Shown piece by piece: positions 3,036 to 33,925 of a stretch of 34,509 bases of DNA (position 1 is the first letter of the stretch; each line of letters opens with the position of its first letter). This DNA is from Saprospiraceae bacterium (GTDB lineage Bacteria; Bacteroidota; Bacteroidia; Chitinophagales; Saprospiraceae), in contig JALHMA010000016.1 in assembly GCA_022844265.1 (NCBI GenBank), forward strand, positions 1 through 34,509, given 5' to 3'. The notes beneath the pieces were generated by a model. The model did not search any database. It was not told the DNA's origin and was given only the letters and a program-made list of their open reading frames with translations. The position numbers and the translations under genes are program-made.

Positions 3036-3062
3036 TTTTTTTCTTTTACAGGCTGTTTTAAG

Positions 3063-3183
3063 GGGTTGATAAAGGTTTATGAGGTTGATAAGGTTGATAT
3101 ACATCCGCTCTAAAAAGCAAAATCGTCTCATTCCAGAGCGGATGTATATCAACCTTATCAACCTCATAAACCTTTATCAACCC
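3063..3183. repeat. Perfect 49-bp inverted repeat (hairpin C), GGTTGATAA-type units
   Basis: 3063-3111 gggttgataaaggtttatgaggttgataaggttgatatacatccgctct is the exact reverse complement of 3135-3183; 23-nt loop. Confidence 0.97.
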
Positions 3184-3240
3184 GTTAAACAACGCATTTT
3201 TCCGAAAGTTGGCGCAAATGTACGGAGAGATAACGAAAAA

Positions 3241-3384
3241 GGTTGTTGAGGGTTGATAAAGGTTGATGAAGGTTTATAAAGGTTGATATACACCCACTCG
3301 AAAAATGGGAAAATGGATCATATTTCGAGTGGGTGTATATCAACCTTTATAAACCTTCATCAACCTTATCAACCCTCAACAACC
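3241..3384. repeat. 62/63-nt inverted repeat (hairpin D), five 10-nt GGTTGATAAA-type units per arm
   Basis: 3241-3303 versus 3323-3384: identical as reverse complements except one 1-nt indel; left arm parses as ggttgttgag ggttgataaa ggttgatgaa ggtttataaa ggttgatata. Confidence 0.97.
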
Positions 3385-3394
3385 TCATCAACCC

Positions 3395-5843: not shown

Positions 5844-5882
5844 CTCTCACTTCTCACCTCTCACTTCTCACCTCTCACTTCT
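5844..5882. repeat. 7-nt tandem tract, alternating CTCTCAC/TTCTCAC
   Basis: ctctcac ttctcac ctctcac ttctcac ctctcac ttct, ending 9 nt from the PorP/SprF stop codon (5892-5894). Confidence 0.95.
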
Positions 5883-5891
5883 AAAAAAGGC

Positions 5892-6833
5892 TTACAGGAA
5901 GAAACGAGGATTCGACATTTTTTTACTGCGTTTTTTCAAATCTGCCTGTACCATCAGTTCGACCGAGCCGGCATTGTAATCTTTGAGGCTCGACAAGCCA
6001 AAATCATACGCTGCGCCTACGCCAAATTGGGGTGATGCCTGCCAGAATGCGAGTAATCCGATGGATTCACCCGGGCCATCACCACCCAAACGATAGGAAA
6101 GACCGGCAGTAAATTTCTTACGAATATCCAGGTTAAGGTTAATATCCGCATCAAATGGTGCATTTTTTACATATTTTAACAAAATAGCAGGCATAAGGTT
6201 GATGTCATCCGCAATCGGAAAAACACCTCCGGCCATGCCGTAGTAGTGCTGGTATTCTTTGGCAATGAGCACTGCACTACCATTGGCATATCCCACTGCA
6301 TTGGAATATATACGCGGTACGGAAAAACCGAAGTAGAACCGGTCAGATACCGTACCATATATTCCCGCGCCCACATTACCATAAAAATCATTCACCTGAG
6401 CGTCGCCAAGCGAAGGATCGCCGCCTACATTGGGCTCGGCATCACTGAATGCGATGCCCAGCGACCTCAAAGAAATGGTAATACCCGTTCGCAGGGAAAA
6501 TTCATCACTTGCGACGAGGTCGTAAGAATAAGCCAGCGCCATGTGGAAATCGCGCTGTAACCCGATCTGCCGGTGCGACAAAGTGACGCCTACCCCTACA
6601 CGTGGAGAAAGGAAAGGAGAGTTGAAACTCACCAGTGCCGATTGGGGAGCACCCTTGAAACCGATCCATTGGTTGCGATAGATGGCTGTAACAGACGGAA
6701 CACCCCGGGCACCCGCATAAGCCGGATTGATGAGCAGTTTATTGTACATAAACTGTGTGTAGTGGTGCTCTTGTTGAGCGAACATGGTCGCTCCTGCCAA
6801 AAGCAAAGCGAATGAAAATATAAGTTTTTTCAT
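5892..6833 (-). CDS. Type IX secretion system membrane protein, PorP/SprF family
   Basis: MKKLIFSFALLLAGATMFAQQEHHYTQFMYNKLLINPAYAGARGVPSVTAIYRNQWIGFKGAPQS, the typical PorP/SprF N-terminus. Confidence 0.93.
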   Translation of the reverse strand: MKKLIFSFALLLAGATMFAQQEHHYTQFMYNKLLINPAYAGARGVPSVTAIYRNQWIGFKGAPQSALVSFNSPFLSPRVGVGVTLSHRQIGLQRDFHMALAYSYDLVASDEFSLRTGITISLRSLGIAFSDAEPNVGGDPSLGDAQVNDFYGNVGAGIYGTVSDRFYFGFSVPRIYSNAVGYANGSAVLIAKEYQHYYGMAGGVFPIADDINLMPAILLKYVKNAPFDADINLNLDIRKKFTAGLSYRLGGDGPGESIGLLAFWQASPQFGVGAAYDFGLSSLKDYNAGSVELMVQADLKKRSKKMSNPRFFL

Positions 6834-11761: not shown

Positions 11762-14700
11762 CTACTTTATCAGAATCATTTTCTTACGATCGCTGTGTGT
11801 GGGTGTTTCAAGTTCATAGTAATACACGCCGGGTGCACCGAGTTCTGATTCGCGGAACTGGAATTCGTTGTAACCTTTTTCAAAGTTGCCGACAACCGTA
11901 CGAACCAACTGACCAGATGCATTGAACACCCGTAACGCTCCCCGGCTGCTTTCCGGCAGGCGGAATCCGATGGTGGTCGTGGCATTGAACGGGTTAGGCT
12001 GGTTCTGATACAGCGTGAAGGAGGCCTGGTCATCCGTTGTGCTGCGTTCTGTGAACTCGAAATCAATTTTCATCAATTCGCCGTCAAAGTTGTATGCTTC
12101 AGCCACGGTCAGTGCGGAACTTGGTCGCAGTATTTCTGCAATTGTACCGTTGCGCAGGGCGCGGAAACGCAAGGTGAACAACACCTCGTCGTCCGCGATG
12201 GTCATTGATTCGCGGCTTACCCACAGGGTTGTCAGGTGACCGTCTGACAGGTAGTTTGTACCAAAATTGTCGTCTGTCAGTGGCAAAACACCGGGTGTAA
12301 TATCTTCGAGTGCAAATACATTCGGATCAAAATCGATCGTCATCTGGTAGGCTAAGCGCTGGTTGAAATCGCTTGCTTTGAATGGGACTGTCACGATCTC
12401 GCCGGCTTTGAATGCGCTGTCGTCGAGGCGGAAACGGAATGATTTACCACCAAAACGCTCTTCTGACTGGTCATTGGTCAACATCGGCGTGATATTGCCG
12501 TTCACGTCGCCCATTCTAACCGCCACAAAATCATCGTCGAGGAAGTCCATATCTGCCGGGTTGTGTACAATACTTTGTGGTACTGGCGCGCTCAGCGGAT
12601 TAGGGCTTGGGAAAACGTATGATTTTGGAACAAATTTCCAGTCAGGCGAACCCAGGATATGCATATCTGTGGCCAACACAACACGCTGAATGCGCAGGTA
12701 GTCATTGAGCGAGATATTGGCGTCGCCGTTTACGTCGGCTGCAACCCACTGGTATGGAGACAACAACTGTGTTCCAAAAATGTGATTGACAATAAACAAC
12801 AGGTCGGCGGAAGAAATACCGGCAGAACCCGCAGTTGCTTTGCTAGCCGCAATAGTAACATCCGAATTGTTCGGAATTTCACTAAAGAGGTAGGTGCCTG
12901 GAACGCCGGTGGTCTGGGTATCACTGACATCCCCTGAAAGCGTAACCACTACGCCGGGAACCGGTTGTGTGGGCAATCTCCATGTCTGAATGTCGCCGCC
13001 AATTTCGATCGCATCAGCAGTACAGTTGATGGTAGCCGAACCGTTTGTTGCATCGATTGGAACAACAACCGGAATGCCGAGGCTATCCTGGTTAAATTCA
13101 ATGCCAACCGGGACGCCGACAACCGTAACAGGAGCAGCAGAACCTACTGCTGCGCTATTGCTGAGCAGTATTTGAACATCGAACAACTTGGTTCCGTCTG
13201 TGAAAATCTGCGGAGCGCCATTGCCCGTCCATACTACGCCTAAGTTATTGAGTGGCAATACATTTGCAATAAATCCGGTCAACTCGGGGTTGACGTTCGT
13301 CACGCCTGTGATGGTACCGACGGTACCGTCGCCGGCATTCAGGGTAAATGCGAAAGAATGCACTTCAAAGAAATTTTCCACCGTAACAGGCACCAGGGCC
13401 ACACCATTCTGGCAACCCGTGTCATCGCCGACAATCAACTGGATTTTTGCGCCTTCATCCACCACTGCGGTGTCTGACTGTATGCAACCGTTGTCTTCGT
13501 CAATCACCGTGATGATGTATATACCTGCCATCAAATTATCCAGTGCGGTAGTCGTATCGCCAGTGCTCCAGGCGTAGGAGAAGTTGCCCGAACCGCCGCT
13601 TGCAGTTGCAAGTGCAGTGCCGTCATCCGATCCGAAGTAGGATTCCGGAGTGGCAGTCGTAGTCAGCGAGAAACCTGCGCTGGCGCCGAGGGTTACTTCC
13701 ACGTCTACGGTGCAGGAGTTGATATTGCCGGAGTTATCCACCACGAACAATGTCAGCGGGTTAATACCCAGTTCACTGCAAACAAAAGTTGTCTGCGAAA
13801 GGTACATCGTATCGATCTCGCAGTTGTCGGTCGTGCCGGCAAGTACAACATCCTGTGGCAGGATAGTTGCCGAGCCGTTGGAACCGAGCGAAATGATGAT
13901 GTCATTGTTACAAACGACGGTCGGAATGCTGTTGTCAATAATCTGGAGCAAAATGGAGTCTTGCCCTGCATTACCGCATGCATCCGTGGCTGTAAAGTGA
14001 ATTGTATATTCACCCACACCGTAATTGCCCGCGATACTCAGTTCGCCATCACCTTCAGGTGCGTCATTCGTGACCGTTATGGCCGAATCCGGCTGACAGT
14101 CGCTGAGGTATTGCAGCACATTAAATTCATTGAGACCGATATTGGCAGAACAGGAGTCGTTCGGCGGATAGTTGGCAGTGAAAATTTTCACCGTATCCGG
14201 CATGCCGAGGAATTGCGGCGCCTGTTCGTCAAGAATCGTAATCGTACGGGTATGTGTAGTCGTATTTCCACAGTCATCGACAGCAGTACGGGTGCGTACA
14301 ATGGTGAAATTGTAAGCGCCGCAAGGGCCGACCGCAACACTGATCGTATCCTGCGTCAACAATACTTCTACGCTGTCGGAGCAATTGTCTGTGGCAGTTA
14401 CCAGCAAGGGTGATGGTACCAAGGAGAAGCAATTGATCGTATCATTCGGGGCCGTTGAAGACAGAATAGGTGCGATCGTGTCCTGAATATTCAATTTCTG
14501 AATACAAACGGCCACATTGCCGGTAAGGTCACGCGCCTGCCAGTAGCGGTTGAGCACCGTACAGGTAGCGCCCGTTCCTGCCGTCAGTGTGTCGGAGAAC
14601 GTAATCATAACGGTGCCCTGACAGTTGTCCGTAGCCGTTGCTGTTCCGTTTGTTGCCGGCGCAGTTGAATCCGTACACTGGATAGTTTTGTTGGCCGGGC

Positions 14701-17700
14701 ATACGACCATTGGCGCAACATTATCCTGTACTACAATGTAAGTCTGGCAGGATGATTCATTGCCGGCCAGGTCTTTTACAAACAGTTTGACCGGGTGCTG
14801 CGTCAGAGCATCTGCATCAGCGCAGTTAAACAGGATACTGGTTGTAATCGGACCTAGTGGTTCGAGGCGTTGTATTTTCAGGTCCAGCGAATCCAGGCTG
14901 GTACAGTTGTCCGAACTGGCGGCATTGATTTGAGCCGTCGTTACTAATACCGTACCGGATGCCTGCAAAGAGACGCTGACGCCGTTGATACAGGCTGCAA
15001 TCGGGTTGGTGCCGTCTTTCACCACAATGACGATTTTGTGCGAACTTTTGTTTCCGCAGGCGTCTGTTGCAAAGAAGGTCGTGGTAAACGTACCCAGACC
15101 GAATGTTTCCGAGGTGTCCGTTTTGGAATAAAACGCTTCGAGATTCGCTATCGTGAGGTCAACGCCGTCGGAACAATCTGAAACATAATTCAGGATATTA
15201 ATATCCACTTTCGCGGTACAATCCGTATTATTGGTAGCCGTAAATGCATTAATCGTATCCGGCGCACCCACAAATATCGGCGCTTCAATGTCCTGCACCG
15301 TAATTTTTTGTGTTCCGGTGGAAACGTTACCGGCTGCGTCCACTGCTGTCCAGGTGCGGGTGATCATGTAATTGTATTGGCCGCAACCTACCGTATCCTG
15401 TGTAGAGGTTTGTACAAAAGTCACGATTGCATTGCTACAGGCGTCAGTTGCCGTCAGTGTAGGGGATGTCGGGATGGCATCCTGACAGTTGATGGTATCG
15501 TTGGCTGGAATATTCTGCAGCATCGGCGCCACTACGTCTTTTACTTTGATGGTTGCAATGCAAGGTAAAGAGGTGTTACCATTGATGTCAACTGCAACAA
15601 AATTGACCACATTATTGCCCAACTGAGTACAGCTGAAACTCAGCGAATCGACATACGTCGTGGCGCCGGTTCTGAATTTGAAAGTAATGGGGCCGCAATC
15701 ATTCTGGTCAAAACTGCCGTTGTCCAATTGACTGGCCGCAATGGTGAAGGTACCTCCTGCGCTCAGGTTTACAGAATCCGATTTGCAGATGGCAACCGGC
15801 GGGAAAATATCCGCCAGAACGGTAATATTCTGTGGTTGAGTGCTGATATTGCCATTTCCGTCATTGTAAACCCAGGTAATGACATAGTTGCCCAGCATCA
15901 AATTGTATGAAGGCGGATCAGTGTTCAGGAACTCACCAACCTGTGCGGAAGGCGTTCCGTAAATTGTATCAGCCAGTGGGTTGCAGGGGTCGAATGCCAG
16001 CGGAGCAAATATGATGAACATACCGCAGGAATCCACAATAGCCGGCAGGGTAACGAGCGCCGGGATCGGATCGTCGCCATCCTGCAATGTCAATTTGAAG
16101 AAACAGGTACTGGTATTGTAGCCATCCGTTCCGGTGATGAAAATGGTGTCATTGTCGCCGGTTAAAGGCGCCGGACCAAAGAAACTGCCTAATGTTGTAT
16201 TTGGCAGCGGATTCTGAGTCAGTACCACATTGCCGGAACAGTTATCCGTGATCTGAACCAGGTTCGTATAGTTCGGAATTTGCGCTTCAGGACAAGTGGA
16301 ACTGAGCAACTGGTTAGCAGGGCAGTTCAGTATAGGCGCCTGCGTATCTTCTACTTCCACGGTGAATTCACAAACAGAAGAGTTGGATGGAACAGCATTA
16401 TCACGCGCCGTATACCGCACCGTGGTAACGCCTACCGGGAACTGCGCCGTCGGGAAAATCTGGAACGGGAAGTTGGCATTGTAATTAAACGGATTCGTCA
16501 GGTTGATGGTCGTTTGAACCGAGTTCGACGTGCTGCCGGCAGCATTCAGAATTTGCTCCTGGATGGTAAATGGCAGGCAATCGTCCACATTGCTCAGCGC
16601 AGCCCAGGGGCGTTGCCAGGTAAAGATATTGGAACAAGCGCCGGGGGTATTTGGAATGACATAGTGTGCGCCGCAAATCGTATCGAAAGGCGGATCAAAA
16701 ACAAATATCGGTCCCTGCGTATCTTTTATGATAACGGAAACCGTGTGCGTGGCGCTATTGCCGCAGGCATCGGAAGCAACCATCGTAACGATGCTGGTGC
16801 CAATCGGGAAATAAGCCGTAATCGGCGTATTCAAGGGCAGTGGCGACGGAACGAGCTCATCCGTATAACCGAAAGAAGGTGTCGGGTAGTCAATTGTAAC
16901 GTTAACGGTTACATCGCCGCAGGCATCTGTAATAACGCCAGGAGAAGTAAGTTCAAAAGTGACCGGCCCGTCGCAGAAAGTCGGATCGTCCGTTGCACTG
17001 GTAATGGTGGTGGGCAGGTTCCATACAGGCGCTGTATTGTCTTCAATAACAATAATTTGTACGGCAGTACCGGTGTTGCCCGATGCGTCGGTAGCCACCC
17101 ATTTGCGCTGGATGGTAAATTCGTCGGCACAACCGCCCGGCGTGATGATGTCATCGCCCGTGCTGTATGTGATAGAAACGACCGAACAGTTGTCCGTTGC
17201 CGTAGCAGTGCCGCCGGAAGTAGCCGGATTATTCGGATTGAATGTAGCGCAATCGACCACAACATTTGCCGGAGGCGTCACCACCGGATTGGTCATGTCC
17301 TTGATCATTACGATCAGGTTGCATTCGTCTGTATTGCCACCGGCATCCGTTACTTCCAGGGTAACCAGGAAGGAGCCGGTCTGGCTGCAATTAAACAAGT
17401 GTGCTGTTTCATAAGGCCCTGCACCTACTTTAAGTCTGTATCCTGTAACACCGCAATTGTCGGTGCTGCCATTGTTCAGGGTAGCAGCCGCCAGGTTAAA
17501 CTGGCCGCTTGCATTCAACACATAAGTCTGGTTGCCGATACATATGGCATCCGGGTCAATATCGTCGATGACCGTAACCCTTGCCTGGCAGGTATCCTGG
17601 TTGCCTTGACCGTCGCGGAGGTCAAGCACTACTGTATTTAGGCCGAGATCGCTGCAATCGAAGTTGTATTCCGTCAGCAGACTGCCTGTGCCATATTCGT

Positions 17701-20736: not shown

Positions 20737-20775
20737 CCTCTCACATCTCTCACCCTCTCACTTCTCTCACCGCTC
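20737..20775. repeat. TCTCAC-type tandem tract (8-9 nt units) just upstream of corA
   Basis: cctctcac atctctcac cctctcac ttctctcac cgctc; ends 18 nt before the corA ATG. Confidence 0.9.
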
Positions 20776-21963: not shown

Positions 21964-24015
21964 TCACCAATTATACGAGCATTCCACCCGCCATCCCCGC
22001 CCCGGCATGGGCCGGTAAAGGAGTGCCTGGTACGGCGTATTCCAGGCGTTTTCTACCCGGACGCCAAGCATTAATCCCGTCAGTTTTTTGGAAAGCCCGG
22101 CAAATCCGTAGCGCAGGATCAGGTTTCCCGTTTGAAAACCGCGCAACATATCCAGGTTATCAGTGGTGACAAACCGGGGTCCGGTAAACTGATGCAGGTA
22201 AGCGCCTGTGAAACTGCCGCGTCGGGCATGTATGCCTACACCTGCCGTGTGGTTGGGTGTGTATGCCAGTTGCTTGTTTAACACGCCCTGCTCTGCTGTA
22301 TAAACCGATACATTCGTGGCTTTTACATATTGGTAACGCCCGGAGAAGCGCCCCTTCCAGCGCCCCATGCGCCAGTGCCAGGCGCCGCTACCTGCCACTC
22401 CCCTACTCCATACTTTTTTCAGGTTAAGCGGCCTGAATATACCGCCTGAACCCGGTTGCCAGTCAATCCAGTCATCCATAAGTATTTGAAAAACAGAGAC
22501 TTCACCGGAAAAAAATTCATTTTGATATTTCCAGCCCAGGTCACTGCTATATCCGCGTTCAGCCTTCAGGCCTGGCCGGCCATAGAAATTCCAGAAACGG
22601 TCATTAAAGGTGGGCAGGTTGAAATTCCGGGAAAGATGGAAGTGCAGTTGCCCGGCGCCGAGGCGGAATTGCCCACCGGCAGACCAGGTAAAAGGAACGC
22701 CCTGCTCCTGCGCCCATTCCTGCCGAAGCAGCAAAGAGAGGCGGCCGTTTTTAAACCGACGTTCTCCTGTGGCATACGCCGCCAATCGGGCCTGTCCGTA
22801 CCAGCGCGTACTGTCTGCGTAACCATCCACATTTGCCCATTGCTGCTGTGCGCTCAGCCCGGTTTTGAAAAAAAAATGCTGCCGGAATGTTGTGGAATAA
22901 TCGCTGCTGAGCAGCGCGGTTCTGGCACGGCTGGAATCCGTTTTACCATAGAGGTCATAAAAAATGCTTTCATCGAGCCATGCCGCGCGGGTTTGCCAGA
23001 GGCTATGCGCATTCGATTGTCTGTCCCAGGTAACAACCGCCCTGTTAGCCCGGTCGCGCTGCCAGGTTTCTGTGGGCAATTGTGTCATTGTCGGCGGAAT
23101 TTCCCGGAACGCACGCTGGCTCCATAGCGCCGATTTCAGCGTATTTTTTTTATTGATAACCCATTGATTGTGTTGCTGAATATCCCATTTTTCCCCAAAG
23201 TTATTGGCTTGCCGAACAAGGGGTTTGCCAATTTGTGTGGTATTGCGATAGGGGAAATCGTTGTTGGAACGCTGCCAGGATGCCCGGATTTCTGCCGCAA
23301 ATTTTTCGCCGGACAAACCGGCTGAAACCATGTTTTCCACGCGTCCCCAACTACCGGCCGCTGTAGTTGCCGTTCCAAAAAAGCCGGCTTCCTGCCGGAG
23401 CGGTTGCGACTCCAGATGAATGTTGCCACCCATGGAACCGCTGCTTTGCGCAGCGCTTTGTCCGCCATACCGCACTTCCACCCGGTCGTCAGGCCAAATC
23501 GGGATCAGGGCAAGGTCGACCACGCCGTGCATGGTACTTTGGAGGGGAAGCCCGTTCCAGAGCACGGGACTGCGTTTAGGTCCGGCGCCTCGGATGGACG
23601 CCGTGGCTAGCGTACCGGGTGCATTGGGCCGGATATCCACCGCATTATCCCAAAACAAACGCTCCGACAAGGATAAGACGCCCTGAACAGGCAATGTGTC
23701 AGCCCGCCAGATGGTGTATCCATTGCGCTCTGCCTGTTGCCGACGGACCAGCACTTCGGGTAACACAAGGGAGGTGTCCGTTTGTGCCTGCAGTCCGCAA
23801 AAACCCTGAAACATACCGGTCAGGAGCAAAAAAAGCCCGGCAGGCGATAAGCCCCCGGGCGGTATTTTCCGTGCGAGGGTCTTATTGAATTTTTTTGAGT
23901 ATTTGAAGATTTGAATATTCGAGTATCTGACTGATAACGAATCATTTATACTCAAATATTCGAATACTCGAATACTCAAAAATTTAGATAACACAGTATT
24001 TATTATATCTGACAA
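21964..24015 (-). CDS. TonB-dependent receptor (outer membrane); 5' end uncertain
   Basis: Plug-like LPEVLVRRQQAERNGYTIWRADTLPVQGVLSLSERLFWDNAVDIRPNAPGTLATASIRGAGPKRSPVLWNGLPLQSTMHGVVDLALIPIWPDDRVEVRYGGQSA; long barrel region. ORF coordinates begin at a TTG, and no ATG precedes the hydrophobic signal-like segment. Confidence 0.8.
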   Translation of the reverse strand: MSDIINTVLSKFLSIRVFEYLSINDSLSVRYSNIQIFKYSKKFNKTLARKIPPGGLSPAGLFLLLTGMFQGFCGLQAQTDTSLVLPEVLVRRQQAERNGYTIWRADTLPVQGVLSLSERLFWDNAVDIRPNAPGTLATASIRGAGPKRSPVLWNGLPLQSTMHGVVDLALIPIWPDDRVEVRYGGQSAAQSSGSMGGNIHLESQPLRQEAGFFGTATTAAGSWGRVENMVSAGLSGEKFAAEIRASWQRSNNDFPYRNTTQIGKPLVRQANNFGEKWDIQQHNQWVINKKNTLKSALWSQRAFREIPPTMTQLPTETWQRDRANRAVVTWDRQSNAHSLWQTRAAWLDESIFYDLYGKTDSSRARTALLSSDYSTTFRQHFFFKTGLSAQQQWANVDGYADSTRWYGQARLAAYATGERRFKNGRLSLLLRQEWAQEQGVPFTWSAGGQFRLGAGQLHFHLSRNFNLPTFNDRFWNFYGRPGLKAERGYSSDLGWKYQNEFFSGEVSVFQILMDDWIDWQPGSGGIFRPLNLKKVWSRGVAGSGAWHWRMGRWKGRFSGRYQYVKATNVSVYTAEQGVLNKQLAYTPNHTAGVGIHARRGSFTGAYLHQFTGPRFVTTDNLDMLRGFQTGNLILRYGFAGLSKKLTGLMLGVRVENAWNTPYQALLYRPMPGRGWRVECSYNW
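23888..23985. repeat. Imperfect inverted repeat (hairpin E), 8-nt GAATACTC/ATTCGAGT-type units
   Basis: aatttttttgagtatttgaagatttgaatattcgagtat versus reverse complement of right arm aaatttttgagtattcgagtattcgaatatttgagtat; right arm parses as actcaaat attcgaat actcgaat actcaaaa. Confidence 0.88.
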
Positions 24016-24551: not shown

Positions 24552-24564
24552 AACTTTTTAATGT

Positions 24565-24667
24565 GTGTTTGGTGTTTCGTTTTTCGTGTTTGGGGTGCTT
24601 CGCTCAACCATCACAGCATGTCTTGGGCAATGTCCCCCCAAACACCAAACACGAAACACCAAACACG
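24565..24667. repeat. Inverted repeat (hairpin F), 7-nt AAACACC/AAACACG units
   Basis: 24565-24595 versus reverse complement of 24636-24666: 29/31 identical; right arm aaacacc aaacacg aaacacc aaacacg (24640-24667). Confidence 0.93.
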
Positions 24668-24671
24668 AAAA

Positions 24672-25607
24672 TCAAAGTACATTCATAGCATCCAGCGCGT
24701 CAGAAACTTCTTTGACCGCTGCCGCTGATTTATGGAGCAGATCGAGTTCGTCCTTTTTCAGGCGAAGTTTGATAATTTCCTGGATGCCTTTGCGTCCAAG
24801 TTTGACCGGTGTGCCTACGAATACGTCCTTCAGTTTGTACTGACCGTTCAGGCGTACGCAGCAGGGGAAAACGCGTTTTTCGTCTTTAAAAATTGAAATA
24901 GCCATTTGGGCAGCGGCTGCGCCGGGTGCATACCAGGCGGAAGTGCCCATGAGGTTGACCAATTCGCCGCCGCCGAATTTGGTGCGCTCGATAATGGCCT
25001 CTAATTTATCTTTTTTAATCAGTTCCGTGACCGGGATACCACTTACTGTTGTGTAGCGGGGCAATGGCACCATAGTATCGCCATGTCCGCCCATCAGCAT
25101 CGCCTGAATATCCTTCGGCGAAACGTCGAGGGCTTCTGCGAGAAATGCGCGGTAACGGGCCGTATCCAGCACGCCGGCCATACCAATCACCCGTTTGTCG
25201 GAAAGACCGGAGGCTTTCCAGCAGGCGTAGGTCATCACGTCGAGCGGATTGGAAACCACGATAATGATCGGGTTTTTGGTGTATTTCAGGATATTCTGTG
25301 TGACAGAAACCACGATTTTGGCATTTGTGGAAATCAGGTCATCGCGGCTCATACCTGGCTTGCGCGGGATACCGGCGGTAATTACAACGATATCCGAATT
25401 GGCGGTAAGGGCATAATCGTCGCCGCCCGTCATCCGGGTGGAATAGCCGTCGATGGGCGCCTGTTGCCAGGTATCGAGGGCTTTGCCTTTGGCCAGATTG
25501 CCCTGTATGTCAATCAATACGACCTCATTAAAAAGGTCTTCGTGTGCCAGTACATTCGCACAGGTGGCGCCTACATTGCCGGCGCCTACGACGGTAATTT
25601 TGCTCAT
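24672..25607 (-). CDS. mdh: Malate dehydrogenase
   Basis: 311 aa; MSKITVVGAGNVGATCANVLA (Rossmann), DIVVITAGIPRKPGMSRDDL, VSNPLDVMTY, GGHGDTMVPLPR active-site motif. Confidence 0.95.
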   Translation of the reverse strand: MSKITVVGAGNVGATCANVLAHEDLFNEVVLIDIQGNLAKGKALDTWQQAPIDGYSTRMTGGDDYALTANSDIVVITAGIPRKPGMSRDDLISTNAKIVVSVTQNILKYTKNPIIIVVSNPLDVMTYACWKASGLSDKRVIGMAGVLDTARYRAFLAEALDVSPKDIQAMLMGGHGDTMVPLPRYTTVSGIPVTELIKKDKLEAIIERTKFGGGELVNLMGTSAWYAPGAAAAQMAISIFKDEKRVFPCCVRLNGQYKLKDVFVGTPVKLGRKGIQEIIKLRLKKDELDLLHKSAAAVKEVSDALDAMNVL

Positions 25608-25987: not shown

Positions 25988-26027
25988 ATCTCACCCTCTC
26001 ACTTCTCACTTCTCACTTCTCACTTCT
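25988..26027. repeat. 7-nt TTCTCAC tandem tract overlapping the 3' end of the Ppx/GppA gene
   Basis: atctcac c ctctcac ttctcac ttctcac ttctcac ttct; the ppx stop codon (26013-26015) and the codons for I/RSEK lie inside it. Confidence 0.95.
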
Positions 26028-26942
26028 AATCTCCGCCAGCATCCCTTCCTTCATCGCATACACGGAGGTGTATATGTCGCGGATGTTTGCTTTGTCCAGT
26101 ACGTGCTGGATCAGCACCATGGCGACCACGACCATTTCCACCCGTTCGTCGGGGAGTTGGGGCATGGCCCGGCGTTCGGCAAGGGTACTGCTGGTGAGCA
26201 TATCCCGGAGCGGTTCAAAATCTTCCGGCGACAGGTGGCCGTACAATTCCGGTTTGGTTGCCGGGTCGAGCAGGAAAATATCTATAACGTCGAACGTACC
26301 GGAAGCGCCGATCAGGGAAGAACTGGGATATTGTTCCAAGGCCTGCCAAAGTGCTCCCAGCGTTTTTTCAAGAAACTGATGGAGTTGCCCGATTTCTTCC
26401 CCTGCAATGGGATCGCTGTGGTGAAATGCGCGAAACAACACCGAAACTCCGATCGGAAAACTTTGTTGCCAGTATACCCGTTCGCGGTCGGCAATGATAA
26501 ATTCCACGCTGCCGCCGCCAATATCCATAATCAGTACCCGGTGGTCGGGGAAAGGAACCGCCTGCCGCACCCCTTTGTAAATCAGTGCCGCTTCCCGGTC
26601 GCCGGTGATGGATTCGGGCCGGATACGCGCCATTTCCCAGGCTTCTTTCAAAAAATCGGGGGCATTTTCCGCCGTTCGCAGGGCCGCCGTGCCGAATGCG
26701 CGGATATTTTCCTGTAGCACACCCGCTTCGTCCAATTGTGCCCGAAACTGCCGCAAGGCATTCAACCCACGGGCATAAGGCGCTGCACCGATGCGCTGGA
26801 TACCTTCTTCGGCGAGCCTGACGTATATTTTGTTTTTCAGCAGAACATGCCAGTGGCCATCGGGCTTGTGTTCCACAATGAGGAGGTGAAAGGTGTTGGT
26901 GCCTAAATCAAGTACTGCACTAAGCATGGGAGTATTTTTCAT
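26013..26942 (-). CDS. Ppx/GppA family exopolyphosphatase / guanosine pentaphosphatase
   Basis: Start reassigned to MKNTPMLSAVLDLGTNTFHLLIVEH; RVLIMDIGGGSVEFIIAD phosphate-binding motif; LIGASGTFD. Upstream 22 codons of the listed ORF are hairpin G. Confidence 0.9.
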   Translation of the reverse strand: MKNTPMLSAVLDLGTNTFHLLIVEHKPDGHWHVLLKNKIYVRLAEEGIQRIGAAPYARGLNALRQFRAQLDEAGVLQENIRAFGTAALRTAENAPDFLKEAWEMARIRPESITGDREAALIYKGVRQAVPFPDHRVLIMDIGGGSVEFIIADRERVYWQQSFPIGVSVLFRAFHHSDPIAGEEIGQLHQFLEKTLGALWQALEQYPSSSLIGASGTFDVIDIFLLDPATKPELYGHLSPEDFEPLRDMLTSSTLAERRAMPQLPDERVEMVVVAMVLIQHVLDKANIRDIYTSVYAMKEGMLAEIRSEK

Positions 26943-26947
26943 AATCA

Positions 26948-27027
26948 GGGATGAGGGATGAGGAATGAGGAATGACCGAGCGTGATGTCGGACATCACGT
27001 TCGGTCATTCCTCATCCCTCATTCCTC
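26948..27027. repeat. Near-perfect palindrome (hairpin G), 7-nt GGGATGA/GGAATGA units
   Basis: 26953-26989 versus reverse complement of 26991-27027: 34/37 identical, 1-nt centre; gggatga gggatga ggaatga ggaatga at 26948-26975. Confidence 0.95.
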
Positions 27028-29988
27028 TTTCATGGCTCTGTAAACTACGCTCTGCAATCGAGGTCGAAAATCCCCGTTCCCAAGTTTATTATTCTCCATC
27101 GTCGGGTAAGTCCGGTTGGATAAAAAGATAAAAATCAGGTTTTTATCCGGATCGGCCCAGACGCCAATACCTGTAAATCCAAGATGGCCGAAGGTGTTGT
27201 TGCCCGCCAGATCGCTCATATTTTTTGTTTCTTTCGGATCCAGTTCCTTCATATCGAAACCGATGCCGCGCCGGGTGCTGCCCGGGAAACGCGTGGTGAA
27301 CCGGCGAACCGTTTCGGGTTTCAGGTACTGTATGCCGCCGTAAGAACCGTCGTTCAGCAGCATCTGGAATATTTTGGCCAGGTCGTTGGCATTGGAAAAC
27401 AAACCGGCGTGCCCGCTGACGCCGCCCAGCATGGCCGCGCCCATGTCGTGAACATAACCCTGTACATGCTGGTGCCGAAAATAGGCATCCTCTTCTGTTG
27501 GGGGGCAACGCAGGGTCAATCCTTTTTGCCAGGGGTTGTAGGTCGTCGTGCTCAGGCCAAGCGGACGGTAAAACTGCTGATCCGCGAATACATTCACCGG
27601 CCGGCCGCTGATTTCAGCGATGGCGCGGGCGCCGAGGTACAGGCCCAGATCAGAATATTTGTATTTTTTATCTTCCCGCAGCGGCGAGTCGAATATTTGC
27701 TGCCAGATGGTGTCTACCCAGGTATTTTCCATGTATAAGCCCTGGGCAACCGGCGTATCAAACTTTCTTTCATGCTTTTCGCGGTAAATCATTGGAGACA
27801 GGTTTTTATCAGCGGTGAGTGTTTGCTGATAAAACGGTATCCAGGCCTGCAATCCGGCATGGTGCGCCAGGATTTCCCGCACCAGAAGGTCTTTTTTGTT
27901 GCTCTTTTTTAATTCCGGAATAAAATTGGACATCGGGACATCCAGGCTAATCAGGCCGTCTTCGGTCAGTTTCATCAGGGAAATGGTACTTGCCGCCACT
28001 TTTGTGACCGAAGCCAGGTCGTAAATACTTTCCGTGGTGACCGGCGTCGGCTGGATGTAGGTAAAAGAGCCGTAGGCTTTATGCCAGACGATGGTGTTGT
28101 CTTTGGCAACCAGAATCTGGCAGCCCGGCGCCGCGCCCGTTGCAATCATTTCCTGTACAATACCGTCCATCAGCGCGAGGGTGTCGCTGCGCATCCCCAC
28201 CGATTCCGGTAGCCCGTAGCCGAGGCGTTTATAGGGATAAATTTTTCGGACGCCCTGCCCGAATTTGGCGGCGGGCGAAGCCGTTACGGGCAAAATGCCC
28301 GTCAGGTCGCTGGCGCCAAACAGCGCCATGGCAGCCGTTTCCTGCACCATCGGGTCTTCCGTATAGGCATCCAGCACTATCGGGAAAGATTCGAAATACC
28401 CCATGCTGTACGGATTGCCAAACATGGTTATCGCCACGGTTGTTAATCCGTTCAGGCGGTGCAGCAAGGTCATCTGGCTGGGTGAAAGACCAAAATTATC
28501 ACTGCCTTTGGAACGTGTGCCGTGTATACTCACCAAAACCACATTGTACTGTTTCAAGGAATCCAGCAGCAACTTCTGCGCCAGCGTATCCACTTCTTTT
28601 CCGGCGTTAAAATGTTTCATGGGAGCATAATAACCGCAATAAGTCTGAAAAACCGTGCGGTTGGTATCGCCCAGGGCGAGGGTGGCAAAACGGTATTTTT
28701 CCAGTTCGCGGAAACCGACAATGCCGGGTTCGTCGCGCACCAGCGTGAGTCCGGCAGCGATCAGTTTGCGTTTGAGCACAAGGGCCTGGGGCGTATTGAG
28801 GTCGCGGCGCAGGTTGTTGAGTTCCACCCTTTGCGGCGTGGTTATTCCGAGGCGATATTTGGAGCGAAGCACCCTTTTACAACTATCGTACAGCTGTTTT
28901 TTGTCGATGGTACCATTATCAACAGCGGTCTGCAGCGCTGTCATGGCGGCGCCCAGGTTCTCCGGCAGCAGGTCGACGTCGTTGCCGGCCCGAAACACCT
29001 CCACATCCGCTTCGCCGGGGCCGAAGTGTTTCGTGACCCCTTTCATTTCCATCGCGTCTGTGAATATAAGTCCCTGAAAATCAAACTTTTTCCGCAGCAA
29101 ATCCGTGATAACCGGCCTGCTCAGCGAGGTGGGGCGGTTGACGCGCGGATCAAGCGCCGGGACGTTCAGGTGGGCCACCATAACGGATCCGATACCATTT
29201 TTCGCCAGCATTTTAAACGGATACAATTCGAGGCTGTCGAGTCTTTCGATGCTGTGGTTCAGCAATGGCAAATCGAAATGGGAATCCACATCCGTGTCGC
29301 CATGTCCCGGGAAATGTTTGGCGCAGGCCAACACACCGCCATCCTGTAGTCCTGCCATGTACTGGAAGGATTTGGCCGTCACATTGTAGCGGTCTTCCCC
29401 AAACGAACGTTCATTGATGACCGGATTAGCGGGGTTGTTGTTGATGTCTGCATCGGGCGCAAAATTGACATGCACCCCCAGGCGGCGGCATTGCCGGGCC
29501 ACTTCGACGCCCATTTCGTAAATCAGCCGGTTGTCTTCTATGGCGCCCAGCATAATTTGTTTGGGAAAGGAAATGGTGGTTTCCCGCAGTCGCATGCCAA
29601 GGCCCCATTCCAGGTCCATGGAGACCATGAGCGGCATTTGCGGACTGGCTGCCTGGTAGCGGTTGGTGAGCGCCGCCTGTTTTTCGGGCGTTCCTTTTCC
29701 CGTCGGGTTAAAATAACAAATGCCGCCCGGTTTGTACTGGCGGATCAGGTCTTCCACTTGCTGTTCGTACGCGGAATCCATATCCAGATGTCCCCGGATC
29801 GCGAACAATTGACCGAAACGCTCGGCATCGCTCATAGCATTAAAAAGCGAGTCGACCCAGAATGCCTCTTTTAAGTTGGCAGACCGGGAAAGGTTGGCAA
29901 AGGGCTTGTTATCATGGAAGCCTTCGAAGAAAATCGTCCCGCATACCAGTAACGGAATACAAAATTTCAGGTTGAAAAAACGTCGCAT
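27019..29988 (-). CDS. Fusion of GH3 beta-N-acetylglucosaminidase (NagZ-like) and serine beta-lactamase/esterase-like domain
   Basis: N-terminal half: CAKHFPGHGDTDVDSHFDLP (NagZ signature) and IFTDAMEMKGV; C-terminal half: LASVTKVAASTISLMKL (SxxK) and YSDLGLYLGARAI (YxN-like region). Confidence 0.9.
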   Translation of the reverse strand: MRRFFNLKFCIPLLVCGTIFFEGFHDNKPFANLSRSANLKEAFWVDSLFNAMSDAERFGQLFAIRGHLDMDSAYEQQVEDLIRQYKPGGICYFNPTGKGTPEKQAALTNRYQAASPQMPLMVSMDLEWGLGMRLRETTISFPKQIMLGAIEDNRLIYEMGVEVARQCRRLGVHVNFAPDADINNNPANPVINERSFGEDRYNVTAKSFQYMAGLQDGGVLACAKHFPGHGDTDVDSHFDLPLLNHSIERLDSLELYPFKMLAKNGIGSVMVAHLNVPALDPRVNRPTSLSRPVITDLLRKKFDFQGLIFTDAMEMKGVTKHFGPGEADVEVFRAGNDVDLLPENLGAAMTALQTAVDNGTIDKKQLYDSCKRVLRSKYRLGITTPQRVELNNLRRDLNTPQALVLKRKLIAAGLTLVRDEPGIVGFRELEKYRFATLALGDTNRTVFQTYCGYYAPMKHFNAGKEVDTLAQKLLLDSLKQYNVVLVSIHGTRSKGSDNFGLSPSQMTLLHRLNGLTTVAITMFGNPYSMGYFESFPIVLDAYTEDPMVQETAAMALFGASDLTGILPVTASPAAKFGQGVRKIYPYKRLGYGLPESVGMRSDTLALMDGIVQEMIATGAAPGCQILVAKDNTIVWHKAYGSFTYIQPTPVTTESIYDLASVTKVAASTISLMKLTEDGLISLDVPMSNFIPELKKSNKKDLLVREILAHHAGLQAWIPFYQQTLTADKNLSPMIYREKHERKFDTPVAQGLYMENTWVDTIWQQIFDSPLREDKKYKYSDLGLYLGARAIAEISGRPVNVFADQQFYRPLGLSTTTYNPWQKGLTLRCPPTEEDAYFRHQHVQGYVHDMGAAMLGGVSGHAGLFSNANDLAKIFQMLLNDGSYGGIQYLKPETVRRFTTRFPGSTRRGIGFDMKELDPKETKNMSDLAGNNTFGHLGFTGIGVWADPDKNLIFIFLSNRTYPTMENNKLGNGDFRPRLQSVVYRAMKEE

Positions 29989-30030: not shown

Positions 30031-31518
30031 ATGAGCTGGTCTTCTGTTCTCCAAACCCTGCTGATCGGCGTCGATCGGCGCAAACTGCCTGAAGAAACGG
30101 CAGCAGGCCTTGGTTTGGCAGCAACGGACGATCCCGTTCGCACTGCGCTGGAAGCCCTGGCCGGCGCTGCGCTGCTGCAAAAAGCCGGCCTGGCGCCCGC
30201 TTCCACAGGAGGATTGGAGCACTTTGAGCAGCAGGCGCCAGACGAATCGGCGCTGGCTGTCCTGCAAGATGCGGCTGTGCGTGATTTACAACGGATGTTG
30301 AGTGGTTCCTATGCCGAAGGCCTGCCTGAATTTTTATCCTTGTTGCAGGACCGCGGTTATCGCCTGCCGCCTGAATTACTGCCGGATTTACTGGATCAAT
30401 GTCTCAAGGAACCCGCGCTCGCAGCCCAATTGGCGCCCATGCTGGGCAAAAGAGGTCTTTGGCTGGCGCAACAAAATGAGCGCTGGCGGCATTTGGCCGC
30501 CGATGTGTCGGCCATCGACTGGTTTACGGCTTCTTTTGATGAGCGCCTGCAACTGCTGGAGGCGACCCGCCACCGCAATCCTTTGCTGACTATTGCCTGG
30601 ATGGAAAAAACCTGGCCGGAAGAAAAGGCGGAGCATAAGGTACAGTTTATCCATTTATTGAACATTCGTTTGTCGGAAATGGATACGGATTTGCTCGAAC
30701 GCGCTTTTCTGGATAAAGGCAGGGAAGTACGGCTGGCGGCTTTGTCCTTACTGGTCTTTTTACCGGAAAACGAGACACGGACGGCGCTGCACGCGTTTTT
30801 TAAAGAAAAACTGGCGGGCGCTTTTCCGGCCCACACGCGGGAAAAACACCTGCAATCTACGCTCCCTGATCTGTCGGATGCGGAATTGAAGCCCTGGTTT
30901 GATTTGTTGTCCAAAAAGGAAAAAAGCGACTGGCGCAACGGGCTGTTCCAATTGTTTGTTCGTTTTGTGCCGCCTGCCGATCTGTTGACTGTTACTGGAA
31001 ATTCGCCTGCTGAAATCATTCAAGCCCTCGATGGTGGCAACCAGACCAGCCTGGCGGAAGCTTTACTGGAAAATCTCCTGCGCCACGAATCGGTATCCTG
31101 GGCGGAGGCGGTCTGGCAGCATTACTGCAAGCAGTTCCGGCATCCGTTGTGGCAAAAAACGGCCATGCAAGGCTTTATGAACCGCCATGCGGAAAGTCTG
31201 ATGCAGCACCTGGCGAAGAAGAACATGTCGCTGGATTACGACAATCAGTTTATCCTGAGGATGCTTGAAAATCACCGGCGCCCCTGGTCTACATCCTTGT
31301 TCAACAACCTGTTACAACAATACCGTTCGGCTGTCAACGGCAATATGCCGGGCTGGCATTATTCCCTGGTGCTGCAAATTGCCGCCTGGCATTGTCATTT
31401 GCCCGATGGCCTGGCGTTTTTGCACGCTTCCGAACCGGGCGTTTACCTGCCGAAGGAATGGACGGCGTTTATGCAGGTGTTGCAGTTTAGGCAGAGGGTG
31501 AGAGAAGTGAGAGGGTGA
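30031..31518 (+). CDS. Helical-repeat-like protein, possibly DUF5691 family
   Basis: 495 aa; MSWSSVLQTLLIGVDRRKLP...; HEAT-like helices (DKGREVRLAALSLLVFLPENETRTALHAFFKEKL). Family recalled from sequence style, not searched. C-terminus encoded by a GTGAGAG tract. Confidence 0.55.
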   Translation: MSWSSVLQTLLIGVDRRKLPEETAAGLGLAATDDPVRTALEALAGAALLQKAGLAPASTGGLEHFEQQAPDESALAVLQDAAVRDLQRMLSGSYAEGLPEFLSLLQDRGYRLPPELLPDLLDQCLKEPALAAQLAPMLGKRGLWLAQQNERWRHLAADVSAIDWFTASFDERLQLLEATRHRNPLLTIAWMEKTWPEEKAEHKVQFIHLLNIRLSEMDTDLLERAFLDKGREVRLAALSLLVFLPENETRTALHAFFKEKLAGAFPAHTREKHLQSTLPDLSDAELKPWFDLLSKKEKSDWRNGLFQLFVRFVPPADLLTVTGNSPAEIIQALDGGNQTSLAEALLENLLRHESVSWAEAVWQHYCKQFRHPLWQKTAMQGFMNRHAESLMQHLAKKNMSLDYDNQFILRMLENHRRPWSTSLFNNLLQQYRSAVNGNMPGWHYSLVLQIAAWHCHLPDGLAFLHASEPGVYLPKEWTAFMQVLQFRQRVREVRG

Positions 31519-31554
31519 GAGGGTGAGAGAAGTGAGAGGGTGAGAGGTGAGAGG
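31493..31554. repeat. GTGAGAG/AAGTGAGAG tandem tract (reverse-orientation relative of the TCTCACTT tracts), overlapping the stop codon of 30031-31518
   Basis: agagggtgagagaagtgagagggtgagagggtgagagaagtgagagggtgagaggtgagagg. Confidence 0.93.
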
Positions 31555-31602
31555 CTTCCCGTTTGGCGGCTCTGATGGTTGGGCTTTGGTTTTTCAGGCC
31601 TG

Positions 31603-31658
31603 GAATCGTGAATCGTGAATCGTGAGTAGTGAGTGGTGAGTGGTGAGTGGTGAGTGGC
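31603..31658. repeat. Eight consecutive 7-nt units: gaatcgt x3, gagtagt, gagtggt x3, gagtggc
   Basis: Read directly with exact 7-nt register over 56 nt. Confidence 0.97.
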
Positions 31659-32290: not shown

Positions 32291-32440
32291 ATTTTTTTCC
32301 CTCGTAGCGTAGTTGGAACACGGATGGGAGGGATGAGACACGGATTTTTTCCCTCGTAGAGTGATGGGACCCGGATGAAACGGATTTTGGCGGATTAAAA
32401 CGGATTTTTCCCTCGTAGATTAGTTGGAACACGAATTTTT
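32291..32440. repeat. Three direct repeats containing ATTTTT(T)CCCTCGTAG(N)..TGG(A/G)AC(A/C)CG
   Basis: ggatttttttccctcgtagcgtagttggaacacgg; cggattttttccctcgtagagtgatgggacccgg; cggatttttccctcgtagattagttggaacacga. Confidence 0.85.
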
Positions 32441-32543
32441 TAAATTGATGATTGTCGATTGATAATTGACAATTTATAATGTAACGCGCAAATCAGCAAT
32501 TGTCAATTATCAATCGACAATCATCAATTAAAAAAATCCGTGT
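32429..32543. repeat. Inverted repeat (hairpin H), 7-nt ATTGATN units
   Basis: 32429-32473 versus reverse complement of 32499-32543: 43/45 identical; attgatg attgtcg attgata attgaca at 32444-32471. Confidence 0.96.
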
Positions 32544-32644: not shown

Positions 32645-32671
32645 TTCTCACTCTCTCACTCTCTCACTTCT
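32645..32671. repeat. TCTCTCAC tandem tract ending 4 nt before the hppD start codon
   Basis: ttctcac tctctcac tctctcac ttct then aacc ATG. Confidence 0.9.
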
Positions 32672-33798: not shown

Positions 33799-33925
33799 TT
33801 TTTTTACCACATAGTTTTTTACCACATAGTTCACAGTAGAATTTCCACATAGATCACATAGGAGTAGTTTCGTTTATGTTATGTGATCTATGTGAAAATT
33901 CTACTGTGAACTATGTGGTAAAAAA
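33799..33925. repeat. Inverted repeat (hairpin I) of CACATAG-type words between convergent hppD and the kinase gene; possible bidirectional terminator
   Basis: 33815-33860 versus reverse complement of 33880-33925: 45/46 identical; outer ttttttaccacatag duplicated at 33799-33829. Confidence 0.96.

Follow-up and report, generated by a model that had tools for sequence, protein, structure and literature searches.

Reports of heptameric repeats between genes have appeared piecemeal for decades. Regulation, G-quadruplex formation and polymerase slippage have been offered as explanations, and there is no accepted function. The STRR of cyanobacteria are heptanucleotide tandem repeats located between genes, like the arrays described here. 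To our knowledge, STRR have not been described as gap-spanning palindromes.

The heptamers of Xanthomonas (GGGAATC) and Nostoc (GGGGA(C/T)T) are intergenic, no more than 50 nt from ORFs; the same work also cites three heptanucleotides from Calothrix (PMC4692102). As in our data, the G-rich strand of the Xanthomonas and Nostoc repeats is the coding one after stops and the non-coding one before starts, divergent gaps are under-represented, and some inverted pairs occur in Xanthomonas (PMC4692102). Those repeats use one word per genome and are mostly conserved between Xcc and Xac (PMC4692102), whereas many words are used here, palindromes span the gaps and families turn over between congeners. 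Their four-unit G-quadruplex logic (PMC4692102) is not applicable to TTCTCAC. A GGG or GGGG run per unit was sought in the GTGAGAA, GTGTTTG and GGTTGAT words, and none was found.

The TAACTGA repeats of Beggiatoaceae, Cyanobacteria and Bacteroidetes are likewise heptamer arrays, forward at starts and once reverse after a stop (PMC4679880). That system consists of direct repeats at starts, whereas the arrays here are mostly palindromic and at stops. The TAACTGA word is also present here as a minor family (AACTGAT/TAACTGA). The paired elements of Geobacter metallireducens are described as several multicopy classes of tandem 7–8 nt intergenic repeats with some inverted pairs, as here; in that description, they have fewer copies, are read as regulator binding sites and are given no gene-edge or polarity analysis (PMC2700814). 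REP/REPIN sequences and MITEs are dispersed, non-coding, intergenic and built of inverted repeats too, but they have defined termini or GTAG/CGTC tags (PMC3116915, PMC3733652), whereas the ends are variable arrays here. BrickBuilt of P. gingivalis is a dispersed intergenic minisatellite, also in a Bacteroidota host; its unit is 23 nt and it lies 49–591 nt from genes (PMC4596501), whereas units of 7–9 nt abut the genes here.

Intergenic heptamer repeats are thus of a known kind. With respect to the open-licence literature, palindromic cassettes that span gaps and turn over in family appear to be new. Scale, polarity and cassette turnover set the cassettes apart from known heptamer repeats.

Data and methods

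The window is the whole stretch of DNA that was analysed (34,509 nt). Together with ~755 kb of the same genome (loci L001–L040), it formed a sample of 790 kb, or ~13% of the genome. Gene calling relied on a home-made hexamer model, which is crude: stops are reliable, starts less so. Palindromes were detected by alignment of each gap to its reverse complement. The PorP/SprF gene and the relatives of this genome point to Bacteroidota.

TTCTCAC tracts in the window

The initial annotation had reported five TTCTCAC-type heptamer arrays at gene borders. All five were found at the same positions (Table 1), and each adjoined or spanned a start or stop codon. The window genes were verified with Pfam (PorP/SprF, CorA, Ppx-GppA, DUF5691 and HPPD-type glyoxalase domains). 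The word said to be shared by the tracts was far more frequent than expected by chance: CTCTCACTTCT with at most one mismatch had 13 matches in the window versus 0.2 expected, all of them inside the five tracts. The exact two-unit word TCTCACNTCTCAC occurred 8 times versus 0.0 expected.

Two descriptions had to be adjusted. The TCTCAC cores are repeated, but the unit is not strictly 7 nt, as the spacers are mainly 1, 2 or 3 nt and the steps 7–9 nt. The tracts are indeed not hairpins by themselves, and no inverted partner was found in the own gap of any of the five; they are, however, orphan arms of a kind that is paired in inverted orientation elsewhere in the genome.

The first tract ends ~10 nt from the PorP stop (5892–5894, minus strand), with its GTGAGA strand being the coding strand of the PorP/SprF gene. 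At corA, the C-rich strand is directed at the start, and the tract ends 18 nt before the longest-ORF ATG (20794). The array at the ppx stop encodes the last ppx residues (RSEK*), and the hppD tract ends 4 nt before the ATG (32676). The region 31493–31657 is half of a concentric palindromic cassette. Its CTTCCCGTTTGGC...TTTTTCAGGCCTGGAATC module (CAGGCCTG core) had 84 exact core matches in this genome and 0 in G015. Six further gaps of the window hold palindromes made of words other than TTCTCAC.

Table 1. Arrays and palindromes in the window
Feature	Position	Strand	Remarks
Palindrome, GGTTGATAA family	3057–3189	no strand	55-nt arms, 98%
Second palindrome of the GGTTGAT family	3239–3394	no strand	same gap as 3057–3189
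TCTCAC array, orphan arm at PorP/SprF stop	5844–5882	+	no inverted partner in gap, score 17
TCTCAC array, orphan arm upstream of corA	20737–20775	+	no partner, score 19
Palindrome, GAGTATTTGAAG family	23892–23982	no strand	
Palindrome, GTGTTTG/CAAACAC family	24559–24679	no strand	
TCTCAC array across ppx stop (26013–26015)	25988–26027	+	no partner, score 23
Palindrome, ATGAGGA family	26932–27048	no strand	fills ppx/GH3 gap, extends into both gene ends
TCTCAC array, DUF5691 stop (31516–31518) inside	31493–31554	-	outer part of half cassette
Core of half cassette, CTTCCCGTTTGGC...TTTTTCAGGCCTGGAATC module	31555–31607	+	dispersed repeat
Inner array GTGAATC/GTGAGTG of half cassette	31603–31657	+	
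Palindrome, AATTGAT family	32429–32543	no strand	upstream of hppD
TCTCAC array between promoter-like TAATTTTG and hppD ATG	32645–32671	+	
Palindrome, ACCACATAG family	33815–33925	no strand	convergent hppD gap

The same letters, GCGGAGATTAGAAGTGAGAAGTGA, end two non-homologous genes, at 26013–26040 of the window and at the DUF5691 end of G015 (L208). This common ending could be a junction microhomology.

Heptamer arrays across the genome

In the whole 6.05 Mb draft, TCTCACNTCTCAC occurred 265 times and the reversed control 0 times. Tandem Repeats Finder reported 443 arrays in the 790 kb; 195 had a period of 7, and the next most frequent period was 8 (45 arrays). Only 33 of 383 arrays were inside genes. 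The excess of period 7 and the largely intergenic placement are STRR-like. Placement relative to genes was not random, in line with the initial annotation: 28 of 29 TCTCAC tracts in the 790 kb were intergenic or overlapped a gene end. Of the arrays, 53% were ≤12 nt from a gene, compared with 16% after random placement in the same gap.

TTCTCAC did not turn out to be a special word. It is one of at least eight heptamer words used alike, with the groups TCTCAC, ACTCAC/ATTCAC, AAACAC, TCATTC/TCATCC, CATCATT, AACTCAT, ATAACNR and, rarely, TAACTGA. Nor is the single tract the unit that matters; this is the gap-spanning palindrome.

Tandem repeats of variable copy number at gene borders could be simple-sequence contingency loci for phase variation. 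We consider this highly improbable, as only one of the 29 TCTCAC tracts is inside a gene, the units are imperfect and mixed, and the window genes are housekeeping types.

Polarity at gene edges

Of 273 arrays of the word families, 242 had the C-rich strand pointing towards the nearest gene. Within 40 nt of the gene, 190 of 196 (190:6) did so. The arrays thus follow the Xanthomonas rule (G-rich strand coding after stops, non-coding before starts). A word-free test of all 6–10 nt arrays within 40 nt of a gene edge gave 221:10 (221/231) in this genome and 119:3 (119/122) in G015. Polarity was weaker in the other genus members (38:18, 38/56) and in other phyla (31:5). Inverted pairs were G-rich on the left and C-rich on the right in 82 of 84 cases (82:2), and partnerless arrays near edges still obeyed the polarity (73:6).

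The polarity holds at starts, at stops and in convergent gaps (79:4). As the latter are stop–stop gaps, avoidance of start codons or SD sequences is insufficient as its sole cause. A stop codon supplied by the array was also rejected as the cause. TGA in GTGAGAA does create some ORF ends; with stops inside arrays excluded, the rule persisted in other phyla for stops wholly outside the array (31:5; 7:4 in the held-out subset alone).

In gaps without palindromes, C exceeded G towards the gene at 84% of starts and 52% of stops. In gaps with palindromes, the value at stops was 84–91%.

The same edge pattern was seen with other words in two congeners. At the hppD locus of G022 (L201), CAATCGCT/CAATCACT octamers precede the start and GGGTTTGG follows the stop. 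In G011 (L199), GAGTGAA follows a stop.

Palindromic cassettes

Long inverted repeats were found in 55 of 72 convergent gaps (76%), 106 of 262 tandem gaps (40%) and 15 of 81 divergent gaps (19%), compared with 0 of 415 shuffled gaps. The palindrome arms were ~60 nt long and 87–89% matched. In L013, concentric palindromes occupy the gaps 14695–15040 and 16366–16657 completely, from one gene edge to the other. TCTCAC forms the outermost ring; a core containing TTTTTCAGGCCTGTAATC comes next, and after it GTGAxTx and GTGTTTx rings and a core of GCTTCGC. The palindromes sort into about 15 multi-copy groups, many of them common to this species and G015. The cassettes have inverted arms, and their ends are variable arrays without fixed termini.

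The arms of one locus were each other's best match over all other loci in 152 of 243 cases, which argues for copying within the locus. Because the polarity resembles fused telomeres, one idea was that a telomerase-like activity adds heptamers to broken ends; the locus-specific matching of the arms argues against independent addition.

Arm mismatches in the tandem gaps of both genomes were G·U in 341 and A·C in 344 cases. Selection on RNA pairing is therefore not visible, and selection for RNA structure or hairpins was rejected for want of a G·U excess. Intrinsic terminators were rejected as well: a T-run followed the 3' arm in 23 of 204 and 12 of 101 cases (11–12%), fewer than the A-runs (40 and 23). 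The 94.5 kb searched with Rfam, including the window, gave 0 matches at the gathering score.

These results bear on the proposal that the palindromes are bidirectional terminators or RNA-protecting 3' hairpins under RNA-structure selection, where any family serves and families therefore turn over. The enrichment in convergent gaps would fit a terminator role too, and we count it against our main explanation. Moreover, nearly all orthologous convergent gaps were palindromic in both this species and G015, mostly with different families, and inverted repeats are a general feature of bacterial DNA downstream of stops (PMC13155455). However, the mismatches without G·U preference, the rare T-runs, the missing Rfam match and the polarity kept by orphan arms speak against the proposal, and we judge it unlikely. 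The combination of no G·U preference, locus-specific arms and no terminator T-runs is better explained by DNA-level copying than by selection of RNA hairpins. A palindrome copied as DNA could still terminate transcription secondarily.

The word GCTTCGC/GCGAAGC forms a very stable DNA mini-hairpin. It was frequent in the cores of different families and genera, e.g. at L003 18976, L062 5918–6068 and L059 5930–6094.

Turnover between relatives

Abundant TCTCAC arrays were found in only one of 24 congeners, G015 (360 matches). Gaps of this relative were as often palindromic as those of the present genome (92 of 206), compared with 0–22% in the larger samples of other genus members. Among 36 orthologous gaps of this species and G015, 13 were palindromic in both, 13 in one only and 10 in neither. 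Where both were palindromic, the family mostly differed, e.g. GGTTGAT versus GTGTTTG. In the convergent 3' gap of hppD, a ACCACATAG palindrome was found here and an unrelated GCGGATT palindrome in G015. The cassettes fill many intergenic spaces of this bacterium and of a single close relative, with quick gain, loss and exchange.

At the same border, array word and number differed between congeners. The ppx border has a GTGAGAA array in G000, a GTGAGTA array in G015 and no array in G021. The DUF5691 stop has arrays in G000 and G015 (short GTGAGAA) and none in G021. A TCTCAC-type leader of hppD is present in G000, G015 and, in short form, G021, and is absent from G006 and G008. In G021, the Thr/Ala-rich low-complexity N-terminus of hppD is expanded, with CTACTGC repeats (L188, ~1300–1515).

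Regulatory sites for an RNA- or DNA-binding protein by start and stop codons, as proposed for TAACTGA repeats, would account for the position at gene edges, for the hppD leader kept in three species and for the recurrence of the word near stops of other phyla (31:5). They would not account for many words sharing position and polarity or for words swapped at the same border between congeners, and no functional relation links the flanking genes that were examined in the window. This reading therefore seems improbable to us.

Clean gains in G015 were L028_9 and L003_10. At L028_9, a TCTCAC cassette swapped the C-terminus VRAKS* for VIEEVRE*, and hence the array supplies the stop. Such gains, and dispersed families with conserved cores like the 84 CAGGCCTG modules, are what MITE or REPIN-like elements moved by a genome-encoded transposase (RAYT or other) would produce. 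The gain at L037_4 is flanked by AATGTT direct repeats, the sole clear target-site-like duplication, and this element has no heptamer arrays. No target-site duplication was seen at array-bearing gains, however, and the ends are variable arrays instead of fixed termini. The survey covered Y1 transposases, and no mobilising enzyme was identified. Y1_Tnp counts do not track palindromes (3 in G000 and 2 in G015, yet 4–6 in the palindrome-poor G007 and G011), so that no correlation supports a RAYT link. Transposase-driven movement is thus possible but doubtful.

L236 of G015, orthologous to L037 8586–8825, has gained a perfect palindrome of ~76 bp without a loop; the divergent gap in which it lies is conserved. 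This L236/L037_4 gain looks like a transposition event.

SbcCD

A perfect palindrome of 460 bp kills E. coli cells that have SbcCD but is tolerated by cells lacking it (PMC4245961). Among 16 genus members searched for the family, SbcD was clearly above the cut-off only in G004, G007 and G011 and was marginal in G013; outside the genus, it was found in G026. A full-length or near-full-length SbcC candidate was found in the genomes with SbcD. Canonical SbcCD was not found in the palindrome-rich G000 and G015, which have shorter relatives only. Long palindromic gaps numbered 0 of 68 in genomes with SbcD versus 20 of 233 in the other congeners without it (p=0.0099, uncorrected for relatedness). 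The congeners G010 and G012 lack SbcD, and there were no palindromes in their samples. As such palindrome-free species exist, loss of SbcD is not sufficient and at most permissive. Such palindromes are probably tolerable because the hairpin nuclease SbcCD is missing, the relation being a correlation only.

Proposed mechanism

We favour, with some reservation, the explanation that the five tracts are terminal arrays (here all orphan arms) of palindromic intergenic cassettes. Many cassette families exist, each marked by a heptamer-like word and in some cases by a conserved core. Comparison of orthologs shows that cassettes are gained and replaced at gene ends. Their arms may be kept matched by arm-to-arm copying at the DNA level, e.g. 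hairpin-templated strand switching, and arm length may change by slippage in unit steps. The cassettes would hug genes because insertion or overwriting is tolerated as far as the coding boundary but no further. The arrays would be neither contingency switches nor selected RNA hairpins.

The polarity has a simple candidate cause in G-poor leaders and palindromic symmetry. A general rule that leaders adjoining start codons are G-poor, visible in our data, would set the polarity and select the palindromes that are tolerated. Symmetry would then carry the G-rich arm to the stop side, because a C-rich right arm of a palindrome requires a G-rich left arm; the G-rich strand would therefore face outward at stops.

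Under this explanation, the heptamer repeats here would be the ends of palindromic cassettes that have a measurable polarity, give way to unrelated families in the same gap of congeners and occur where SbcCD is missing. If this is right, a DNA process has left behind some of the apparent regulatory sequence at gene borders in bacteria, and it reshapes gene ends too. A more speculative extension, which we hold to be rather unlikely, is that without SbcCD self-propagating palindromes overwrite intergenic DNA: any short word suited to G-poor leaders could grow, be mirrored within a gap and be copied into others, and families would compete for gaps, with wholesale turnover between genes and the genes themselves left intact.

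Other genomes and phyla

Three exact TTCTCAC units were found in Bacteroidota, Verrucomicrobiota, Acidobacteriota, Desulfobacterota, Chloroflexota and others. With a degenerate spacer, TTCTCAC units were present in 26 of 297 sampled Bacteroidota genomes. Palindromic TCTCAC pairs occurred in Hymenobacter, Flavobacterium, Prosthecobacter and a Pyrinomonadaceae MAG. The palindrome cores in Hymenobacter contained CATCCTGAGCGAAGCGAAGGATC. The reversed control CACTCTN was abundant in G190 and G011 (85/86 and 127/108 matches), where it represents an independent heptamer family.
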